Positions 16,392 to 18,582 of a DNA stretch of 64,000 nt are shown here, piece after piece (the stretch's first letter is position 1; each line of letters starts with the position of its first letter). The notes under the pieces are model-generated. The model worked only from the letters and a program-made list of their open reading frames with translations. It ran no database searches and was not told where the DNA came from. Source of the DNA: Allosphingosinicella indica (lineage in GTDB: Bacteria; Pseudomonadota; Alphaproteobacteria; Sphingomonadales; Sphingomonadaceae). The position numbers and the translations under genes are program-made. The stretch is taken from assembly GCF_900177405.1 (NCBI RefSeq), contig NZ_LT840185.1, forward strand, positions 372,001 to 436,000. The letters run 5' to 3'.

Positions 16392-16468
16392 GCACCCATA
16401 GCTCAGCTGGATAGAGCGCTGCCCTCCGAAGGCAGAGGCCAGAGGTTCGAATCCTCTTGGGTGCGCCA
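16392..16468 (+). tRNA. tRNA-Arg, anticodon CCG
   Basis: The cloverleaf is complete. The acceptor stem GCACCCA pairs with TGGGTGC, the D arm is GCTC...GAGC, and the anticodon stem CTGCC/GGCAG holds the loop CTCCGAA, giving CCG, which reads CGG. The T arm is AGAGG-TTCGAAT-CCTCT. The discriminator base G is followed by an encoded CCA. It is 77 bases long. A lower-GC patch with frameshifted genes starts directly after its 3' end. Confidence 0.97.
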
Positions 16469-16548: not shown

Positions 16549-17029
16549 TCAGGACAGACCCGCTTTATCCAACGCAAATGCCTTGTCTTGCGAGCCGGGC
16601 ACAGACCGGAAAGCGATAGAGGCTCGGTTCCAAGCGTTGATGACCATGACCATGTAAGTGAGATAGACCAGCTCAATCGTCCGAGAATTGTGCGCGTGCC
16701 TCGGCATATACATCGTCCGAGACACCCTGAGGCGACAATCGGGTCAACGCTTCAGTCCACATCAACGCGACCCGCTCGCGATCGCTGAACAGGCTCGACT
16801 CACGCCAGATCGCGACGTGATGAATGCGCAGCTCCCGCTCACCATTGAGCCTGGCCTGCTTGATGTGCATGTCGAGGCAGAAAGCGCAGCCATTGAGCTG
16901 CGATGCGCGGATTTCGATCAGGCTCAGGATCGCCTGACCGATGGTGCTCTTCTTGAGTGCGAAGGTAAGCTCGGTCAGTTTCTGCGTCAGCGTCGGCACT
17001 TGGCGCATATGGTTCAGTCGTTCGGACAT
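16549..17029 (-). pseudogene. AhpD/carboxymuconolactone-decarboxylase-like gene, frameshifted
   Basis: The first 118 codons from ATG 17029 encode a good AhpD-like domain with the redox motif Cys48-x-x-Cys51 and His55 (GCAFCLDMH). The frame then hits TGA at 16673-16675. Removing one T near 16675-16677 restores about 42 further codons: ELVYLTYMVMVINAWNR, then FRSVPGSQDK and LDKAGLS, ending at 16549. That tail is the normal C-terminus of the family, so a one-base insertion has broken the gene unless it is a sequencing error. It is the second gene behind the ECF41-type promoter at 17557-17583. The truncated protein keeps the catalytic motif but loses a helix. Confidence 0.8.
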
Positions 17030-17054: not shown

Positions 17055-17510
17055 TCAGGATTTGGCTTGCACCGGCAAGCGGAAGGGTGCGCCAAGACGA
17101 TTGAACGCATTCATCGCTGCGATCGCGATCGTAAGATCAGCCAGGTCGCGCGGTTCAAATGCTGTCGCTGCAGCGGCATAAGCCTCGTCCGAGGCATGAG
17201 TTTCGCTGACCCGTGTCACCTCCTCCGCCCAGGCAAGCGCCGCCCGATATCGCGCGTCAAACAAATGCGGCACTTCGGCCCAGACCGGAAGGAGCACCAC
17301 CTTGTCGAGCGGCATGGTCTTGAGCAGGTCGCGGGTGTGGAGGTCGATGCAATGCGCACAACCGTTGATCTGGGACACCCGAAGAAACACGAGGTGAATC
17401 ATCTCCTCCGGCAGATTGGTGCCGGTGGTGATGTAACGATGCACGCCGAACAGGGCCTGCGCACCCTTTGGCGCCACCTCGTACCAAACCAGACGCTTCA
17501 TCTCTTCCAT
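17055..17510 (-). CDS. AhpD/carboxymuconolactone-decarboxylase-like protein
   Basis: This 151-residue all-helical protein carries the peroxidase-type motif Cys51-A-H-Cys54 with His58, as in AhpD alkylhydroperoxidases. It probably reduces or isomerises a small reactive compound, though the substrate is unknown. The C-terminal AIAAMNAFNRLGAPF matches the family tail that the neighbour has lost by frameshift. The ATG at 17510 follows AGGA. An in-frame upstream start at 17555 would overlap the -10 box of the promoter and is rejected. It is the first gene of the operon divergent from the ECF41 sigma gene, the classic context of that sigma group. Confidence 0.88.
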   Translation of the reverse strand: MEEMKRLVWYEVAPKGAQALFGVHRYITTGTNLPEEMIHLVFLRVSQINGCAHCIDLHTRDLLKTMPLDKVVLLPVWAEVPHLFDARYRAALAWAEEVTRVSETHASDEAYAAAATAFEPRDLADLTIAIAAMNAFNRLGAPFRLPVQAKS

Positions 17511-17556
17511 GTCGTCATTCCTTTGCAGCAGCGTCCAACCAACGCTCATCTGCACT

Positions 17557-17583
17557 GACGAGATTGCCCACGCCGATGTGACA
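17557..17583 (-). promoter_or_regulatory. ECF41-type promoter for the AhpD-like operon
   Basis: On the reverse strand TGTCACA (17577-17583) is followed by exactly 16 bases and CGTC (17557-17560). This is an exact match to the published ECF41 consensus TGTCACA-N16-CGTC. It lies about 47 bases before the ATG at 17510. Confidence 0.85.
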
Positions 17584-17616
17584 TGCAGGAAGATTTTCTG
17601 GATGTGGCCGCGATCG

Positions 17617-17643
17617 TGTCACATTGCTTCGTGCCGGCTCGTC
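17617..17643 (+). promoter_or_regulatory. ECF41-type autoregulatory promoter
   Basis: TGTCACA (17617-17623), 16 bases and CGTC (17640-17643) again match the ECF41 consensus exactly, on the opposite strand to the previous site. It lies 30 bases before the ATG of the sigma gene and should drive its autoregulation. Confidence 0.85.
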
Positions 17644-17673
17644 AGATTTGAGGAGCCAAGGAGGCGGCGCGAG

Positions 17674-18582
17674 ATGAAGGGCTGGGAAAGCACTGATGCT
17701 GCGGGCAGAGAGTCCAAACAGAGCTGGCGTTTGGCTGAATTTCAGCGGGAGCGGAAGCGGCTCGTTCGCCTTGCCTATCGGATGCTGGGGTCGTTCAGCG
17801 AGGCCGAAGATGTCGTGCAAGATGCCTGGCTTAAATGGGAGAATGTCCAGGGCGGCATCGATTCACCGGCGGCATATCTGACGCGCGTCGTCACGCGCCT
17901 GTGTCTGGACCGCCTCAAATCTGCACGCGTAAGGCGTGAAACCTATATCGGTCCATGGCTGCCCGACCCCTTGGTGGACTCTGTCGATCCCGATGAAACG
18001 ATCGCCGATGATATCACGGTCACGCTCATGCTCGCGATGGAACGGCTTTCACCCCTCGAACGGGCGGCATTTCTTCTGCACGATGTCTTTGATGTCGCGT
18101 TGGGCGACGTGGCCGTGACGCTGGGCCGAGAGCCGGCGGCGGTGCGCCAGCTCGCCTCGCGCGCGCGCAAACACTTGCACGCCGCCCGGCCGCGATTCAG
18201 CATCGAAGCGACTGAGGCAAACCGGATCACGCACGCCTTTTTCGCAGCCGCGCGTGACGGCGATACTGCCGCCCTTGCATCGCTACTCGCTCAAGAGGTG
18301 GAAATCCACTCGGATGGCGGCGGGAAGGTTTTGGCGTTTCGGAACATTGTCCGCGGTATTGATCGCGTGCTGCGCCTGTTCGCAGGACTACGGCGCAAAA
18401 ATGCGCCCGTTGCTCGACTGCTACGCACGGTGGAGATCGACGGTTTACCGGGTTACATCAGCGTCGATCGCGACCTCGTGCAGACGACCGCACTCGATAT
18501 AAGGAACGGCAGGATTGCGGCGATCTACATCGTTCGGAACCCCGACAAGTTACGGCACCTGACAGAGGTCATCAGCGGCTAG
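17674..18582 (+). CDS. ECF41-family RNA polymerase sigma factor with SnoaL-like C-terminal domain
   Basis: This is a 302-residue extracytoplasmic-function sigma factor. Region 2 spans about 20-90 and region 4 about 120-172. A SnoaL/NTF2-like extension (about 180-300) replaces the anti-sigma factor usual for ECFs. The hallmark motifs of group ECF41 are present: WLPDP in the linker (95-99), DGGGK (214-218) and NPDKL near the C-terminus (289-293). In characterised members the extension contacts the core and controls activity. GGAGG lies 11 bases before ATG 17674, which decides the start over a longer frame. Exact cognate promoters precede both this gene and the divergent AhpD-like genes. Base composition is visibly lower in GC than the flanks. 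Confidence 0.93.
   Translation: MKGWESTDAAGRESKQSWRLAEFQRERKRLVRLAYRMLGSFSEAEDVVQDAWLKWENVQGGIDSPAAYLTRVVTRLCLDRLKSARVRRETYIGPWLPDPLVDSVDPDETIADDITVTLMLAMERLSPLERAAFLLHDVFDVALGDVAVTLGREPAAVRQLASRARKHLHAARPRFSIEATEANRITHAFFAAARDGDTAALASLLAQEVEIHSDGGGKVLAFRNIVRGIDRVLRLFAGLRRKNAPVARLLRTVEIDGLPGYISVDRDLVQTTALDIRNGRIAAIYIVRNPDKLRHLTEVISG

Follow-up and report, generated by a model that had tools for sequence, protein, structure and literature searches.

The window, a 64,000-nucleotide stretch of the Allosphingosinicella indica genome, holds two copies of the motif TGTCACA-N16-CGTC back to back between an ECF41 sigma factor gene and an operon of carboxymuconolactone-decarboxylase (CMD) family genes. 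This arrangement raises the question of whether the two sites act as one self-regulated switch, and whether anything in the DNA between them could set the output promoter apart from the feedback promoter.

A divergent ECF41 module

The features of the locus are collected in Table 1. The sigma protein scored 363 bits against the SigJ subfamily model NF007214 (NCBIfam, cut-off 271) over residues 19-297, and PF04542 and PF08281 (sigma regions 2 and 4) were found above their cut-offs. TIGR02957 stayed under its own cut-off (291.6 vs 323.25 bits), as did SnoaL_2 in the extension (23.3 bits, with a Pfam cut-off of 27 bits). Residues 17-293 aligned to the solved SigJ of M. tuberculosis (PDB 5xe7, E 6.6e-53), a nearly full-length match, although that protein is actinobacterial. 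In a 7-sequence alignment, the motifs WLPDP (residues 95-99; the linker motif is named WLPEP in Wecke et al., PMC3426412), DGGGK (214-218) and NPDKL (289-293) were all located in the protein; the latter two names are those of the original prediction. Together with the NF007214 score and the 5xe7 alignment, these motifs bear out its assignment of the sigma factor to ECF41. A Shine-Dalgarno-like AAGGAGG (17658-17664) stands before the ATG at 17674. By family matches, membrane topology aside, the neighbours of the sigma gene are the CMD genes, a 116-aa protein without a family match and an AraC-type regulator.

Table 1. Positions of the module and its promoter elements in the window
Feature	Position	Strand	Remarks
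tRNA-Arg (CCG) gene	16392-16468	+	adjoins the CMDb end of the module
CMDb, second CMD-family gene	16673..17029	-	CAFC; read as 118 aa
CMDa, CMD-family (AhpD-like) enzyme	17055..17510	-	CAHC; 151 aa; promoter-proximal gene of the divergent operon
ECF41-type promoter of the CMD (AhpD-like) operon	17557..17583	-	TGTCACA-N16-CGTC, exact motif match
A/T tract between the two promoters	17593..17597		ATTTT on +, AAAAT on -; UP-element-like
ECF41-type promoter of the sigma gene	17617..17643	+	TGTCACA-N16-CGTC, exact motif match
ECF41 (SigJ-type) sigma factor	17674..18582	+	302 aa; sigma2, WLPDP linker, sigma4, SnoaL-like C-terminal extension

ECF41 sigma genes often have CMD genes beside them, and here CMDa and CMDb are the only matches to PF02627 in the genome at E <= 0.001. 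The start of CMDa was taken as the ATG at 17510, after AAAGGA, and its matches among solved structures were 2ijc, 7xw1, 2o4d (PA0269) and 2gmy (Atu0492). Both enzymes carry a CxxC motif, from which an AhpD-like peroxidase or decarboxylase output, as originally predicted, can be inferred, but the published ECF41 mutants of R. sphaeroides and B. licheniformis had no oxidative-stress phenotype (Wecke et al., PMC3426412). CMDb is 118 aa long in the window, vs 159-164 aa for its homologues in the seven closest relatives. The remaining homologous C-terminus was found in another frame, down to about 16549 on the minus strand, indicating a shifted frame near the 3′ end, and among the eight loci of the close group only the window genome has the shortened gene. 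Either a real frame shift or a sequencing error in 16549-17029 (-) would account for this. As a minimal module the locus is thus less clean than originally described; the promoters, the sigma gene and CMDa are intact. In the closest relative, Sphingomonas soli (L038), the gene order is the same and the module likewise adjoins a tRNA-Arg (CCG) gene, as well as an endonuclease-III-like gene (named by reading the sequence). A constant association with the tRNA-Arg gene was rejected, since it is true of the window and L038, while at the remaining six close relatives no such gene was found.

We then searched for the promoter motif. TGTCACA-N(14-18)-CGTC has two exact matches in the window, 17557-17583 (-) and 17617-17643 (+), each with N16, while 0.12 matches were expected from shuffled windows and two matches were reached in only 1 of 100 shuffles. 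From base composition, the genome is expected to hold about 0.9 exact N16 matches, counting both strands, and the 163-bp gap about 5e-5. The exact motif on both strands of the gap was thereby confirmed; the forward coordinates originally given were correct, but the reverse site, placed at 17577-17557, has its 5′ end at 17583. The search of the complete genome (2,807,253 bases), which the original prediction had called for, returned exact N16 copies only at these two sites. With N(14-18) allowed, one further match (G000:C1:827512, spacer 18) lies between two genes whose sequences read as an XRE/ScfR-like regulator and an isocitrate-lyase-like enzyme. We regard it as a chance match, with an unrelated gene pair and a spacer outside the published 16 ± 1 (PMC3426412). 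When up to one mismatch was allowed, N16 gave 15 genome matches, including the two exact ones here, compared with 12 for the reversed-pattern control; the exact pair therefore stands out and the near matches do not, so that no further regulon member can be claimed.

The -35 element of the CMD-operon promoter is directly preceded by CA, and its start site is predicted at about 17548-17551 (-), using the 9-nt offset after CGTC (PMC3616915) and the C/purine step in the promoter base counts described below. For the sigma-gene promoter, the predicted start at about 17650-17652 (+) would give a leader of about 22 nt, and two mapped ECF41 promoters have 22/23-bp leaders (Wecke et al., PMC3426412). 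The predicted starts on both sides precede good ribosome-binding sites.

The divergent double ECF41 promoter is an arrangement already published in 2012, and the window locus is a member of this described class. Wecke et al. (PMC3426412, Table 4) counted 55 divergent ECF41/COE loci among 373, with the motif before the sigma gene, P(ECF), in 36/55 and before the enzyme gene, P(COE), in 41/55; their ECF41 promoter set comprises 285 sequences. Their modules (R. sphaeroides, B. licheniformis ydfG) share with the window the sigma group, TGTCACA-N16-CGTC, the CMD neighbour, a divergent layout often flanked by the motif on both sides and, as far as family matches show, the lack of an obvious anti-sigma gene, whereas the window has a tandem of two CMD genes. 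Promoters with this motif have been published as activated by ECF41 and as its sole targets, and in relatives most of the C-terminal extension was shown to inhibit (PMC3426412).

Promoter pairs among relatives

Relatives were collected by a sigma-based scan, from which the best 80 of 380 confirmed matches were kept as loci, and loci from genome searches were added. This set contains 25 distinct divergent pairs, window included; L013 was removed because it duplicates L050 (it still figures among the 26 rows of two earlier tabulations, the matrix scores included), and L068, L093, L142 and L144 were dropped for want of a P+ site. The promoter pointing away from sigma (P-) leads into a CMDa homologue in 24/25 pairs, L063 being the exception. 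P+ drives sigma directly in one group of pairs, to which the window belongs, and in another group it drives an epimerase/NmrA-like gene (Pfam, L013 copy) or an unassigned gene ahead of sigma. The -35 elements are separated by 31-39 bp in 21/24 pairs (gap and tract centre were tabulated for 24 pairs, without L036) and by 20, 21 or 60 bp in the others, indicating a spacing that is constrained but not fixed. At every one of the eight loci that make up the CMDa-CMDb group (window, L038-L043, L069), the sigma side has an exact core, 57-74 bases ahead of where the sigma match begins; this core is therefore maintained.

We also considered that P- might simply be the better promoter. The core counts contradict this, with an exact -35 in 25/25 P+ sites vs 18/25 P- sites, and thus speak against any plain rule that the CMD promoter is the stronger one, although the comparison is biased because P+ was selected for its match. 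In the exceptional locus L063 (3377-3490), the divergent ECF41-type pair has a 60-bp gap without a tract, and the outward 172-aa ORF was unmatched by the CMD queries.

An A/T tract upstream of ECF41 promoters

In the first 80 loci, an A/T tract was noticed just above the -35 element, 10-17 bases above TGTCACA, at ECF41 promoters more than 300 bases before sigma and mostly ahead of a CMD gene. This tract is the main addition of the present analysis and is absent from the original prediction. We scored it as a run of at least 5 A/T at -20 to -7 relative to TGTCACA, in promoters classed as single by their distance (>300 bases before sigma) and thinned at 60% identity over 60 nt (77/90 kept). The tract was present in 59/77 single promoters, compared with 6-9/77 in each of four intervals farther upstream. 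In a hold-out set unlike the discovery rows, from which L014 and L133 had been left out as too like earlier rows, the tract occurred in 27/33, vs 3-6/33 farther upstream.

The first gene behind the 90 single promoters was a CMD homologue in 63, NmrA-like in 6 and unassigned in 15, while ORF picking had jumped to sigma in 6. After thinning, the tract was found in 42/52, 2/5, 10/14 and 5/6 (unresolved) of these groups, respectively. The tract is thus best supported for CMD-first promoters, and its presence in only 2/5 promoters before an NmrA-like gene means that it is no rule for all ECF41 promoters. It was found in 0/6 sigma-first promoters, but these all belong to different classes of the same phylum, and gene order and taxon are therefore confounded in this comparison.

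As decoys we used other exact core copies in the relatives' genomes (84/85 kept after thinning), comprising the matches with a retrieved locus and 60 hand-chosen stretches, part of those listed; decoy status was set by the core match alone. Only 11/84 decoys carried the tract, against the 59/77 ECF41 promoters, and the difference persisted in A/T-matched subsets (3/55 decoys vs 43/59 true promoters). The Fisher p-value of 1e-16 for promoters vs decoys overstates independence, because the loci are related, mostly alphaproteobacterial, and in many cases gathered by likeness to the window sigma. The base counts of the promoters showed A at -17 to -14, T at -13 to -10 and CA at -2/-1; CGTC was preceded by T, and a C/purine step marked the expected start. 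Two of these positions also distinguished promoters from decoys: A at -1 (67/77 vs 26/84) and T before CGTC (58/63 vs 14/84). EcfG sites were tried as a second promoter control and abandoned: GGAAC-N16/17-CGTT in the own genome gave 29 matches vs 41 for the reversed control, and 30 loci near NepR genes yielded only 6 sites, one of them with a tract, which is too few.

These results bear on regulon searches. Of 60 relatives' genomes, 45 had no ECF41 match above the cut-off; in these the bare core (exact, spacer 15-17) matched 84 times, vs 73 for the reversed control, so searches with the bare core alone give mostly chance matches, while the tract, A at -1 and T before CGTC separate true ECF41 promoters from decoys.

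Within the divergent pairs, the tract mostly sits closer to the CMD side. In the window it occupies -14 to -10 from the TGTCACA of the CMD promoter and -24 to -20 from that of the sigma promoter, which has no in-register tract and carries G instead of A at -1. The tract was in register with the CMD side in 21/25 pairs (the exceptions are L044, L063, L064 and L065) and with the other side in 3/25 (L039, L060, L071). Its centre lay 14.2 bases (SD 1.5) from the -35 element on the CMD side and 21.4 bases (SD 2.3) on the other side, in the 20/24 pairs that have a tract. It was nearer to the CMD side in 18 of these 20, and in L060 and L071 it lay roughly halfway; although the spread is smaller to P-, these two cases led us to reject the view that a single promoter owns the tract. 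A matrix built from the single promoters scored the upstream region higher on the CMD side in 25/26 rows (one duplicate locus), and in 15/16 pairs after thinning at 60% identity over 40 nt (16/25 kept).

For the promoter of S. meliloti RpoE9/SMb20029, the start site has been mapped 9 nt after CGTC (PMC6180224, PMC3616915). This promoter shares the motif and the tract position with the window, with CAAAAAAATTC just upstream, although it serves a co-directional CMD-sigma operon and is the only promoter there. The tract spans about -52 to -45 relative to the mapped start. UP elements are A/T tracts at about -40 to -60, and we take -52 to -45 to be the range of the distal UP subsite. The near-fixed position of the tract at about this range, to which there are exceptions among the divergent pairs, makes it look like an UP-element subsite, as far as sequence can tell.

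UP elements have been mentioned in general terms, as something that may be important at ECF promoters (PMC10880074, PMC5333181). On weak evidence, a tract at ECF41 promoters may be new to the literature: figures aside, a term search of the main text of Wecke et al. (PMC3426412) found no mention, and the tract is undescribed in the relevant passages of PMC10880074, PMC9023288, PMC3817407, PMC5333181 and PMC8103513. The synthetic UP elements of Rhodius et al. (2013), whose main text does not contain the word ECF41, are likewise A/T-rich -35 to -60 regions that enhance promoter recognition; those were designed into promoters from GC-rich genomes, whereas here the tract is natural and near-fixed in position.

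Possible roles of the promoters and the tract

We consider it probable, at roughly 0.8, that the locus is an ordinary ECF41 self-regulating module of divergent layout, with a CMD output and an UP-like tract that would favour this output. Self-regulation, as originally predicted, is supported by the promoter motifs and the identity of the sigma factor and matches the published picture (PMC3426412). The sigma factor would be held back by its own SnoaL-like C-terminal extension until a ligand or state releases it, and RNA polymerase would then be directed to the two back-to-back promoters, of which the one before the sigma gene would provide positive feedback and the one before the CMD/AhpD-like operon the output. 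The tract between the -35 elements would act as a subsite of an UP element, bound by the alpha C-terminal domain. Its register suits the CMD promoter, and from the sigma promoter it is several bases more distant in most pairs (10 in the window), so the output promoter should be favoured over the feedback promoter. A more specific proposal, somewhat short of an even chance, is that ECF41 promoters of CMD enzymes are three-part, with an UP-like tract above the known core, and that the single tract of a divergent module, mostly in register with the enzyme promoter, biases output over feedback, with the two polymerases competing for one alpha-CTD site.

The tract itself may have a different reader. 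It could be the site of another regulator, or of a curved-DNA or nucleoid protein that co-occurs with ECF41 promoters, and not of alpha-CTD; we give this perhaps one chance in four in weighing it, hence unlikely. Its fixed position and loose sequence would suit such a protein, and A-then-T tracts bend DNA and bind several proteins. However, relative to the mapped or predicted start the tract lies at about -52 to -45, in keeping with the distal UP subsite; its conservation is limited to A/T content and A-then-T order, which alpha-CTD would predict; and it is also present in six Nannocystis loci, in another phylum.

A separate doubt concerns the sigma side. Only the CMD promoter might be used by ECF41, with the sigma gene transcribed mainly by the housekeeping sigma and the sigma-side motif weak or decaying. 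The missing in-register tract and the G at -1 on this side would agree with that, as would the published P(ECF) count of 36/55 divergent loci (PMC3426412), but a core kept exact throughout the CMDa-CMDb group speaks for maintenance, and we find this account improbable. Least credible of all is that the pair is a product of chance or an ancestral relic without a current regulatory role, for instance in a decaying module. The CMDb gene shortened in the window genome alone would be in keeping with decay, but both promoters, sigma and CMDa are intact and the 31-39-bp spacing is retained in 21/24 pairs, which leaves very little room for it.

The tract points to a difference between output and feedback promoters that can be put to the test, and synthetic ECF41 switches trimmed to the -35 element may prove less active. 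The window locus adds one member to a described class, and the added promoter element is the useful part.

Two further observations were made in the locus set. In six Nannocystis loci (L073, L074, L076, L077, L083, L089), ECF41 sigmas 65-68% identical to the window sigma are preceded by a CMD gene and a promoter with the same A/T tract; these modules suggest transfer between phyla, judging by their likeness. Finally, L049, L056, L057, L066 and L070 carry a second exact ECF41 promoter just 3′ of sigma, at about +919 to +937 counted from where the sigma match begins, and L056 and L057 have a CMDa homologue behind the sigma gene.
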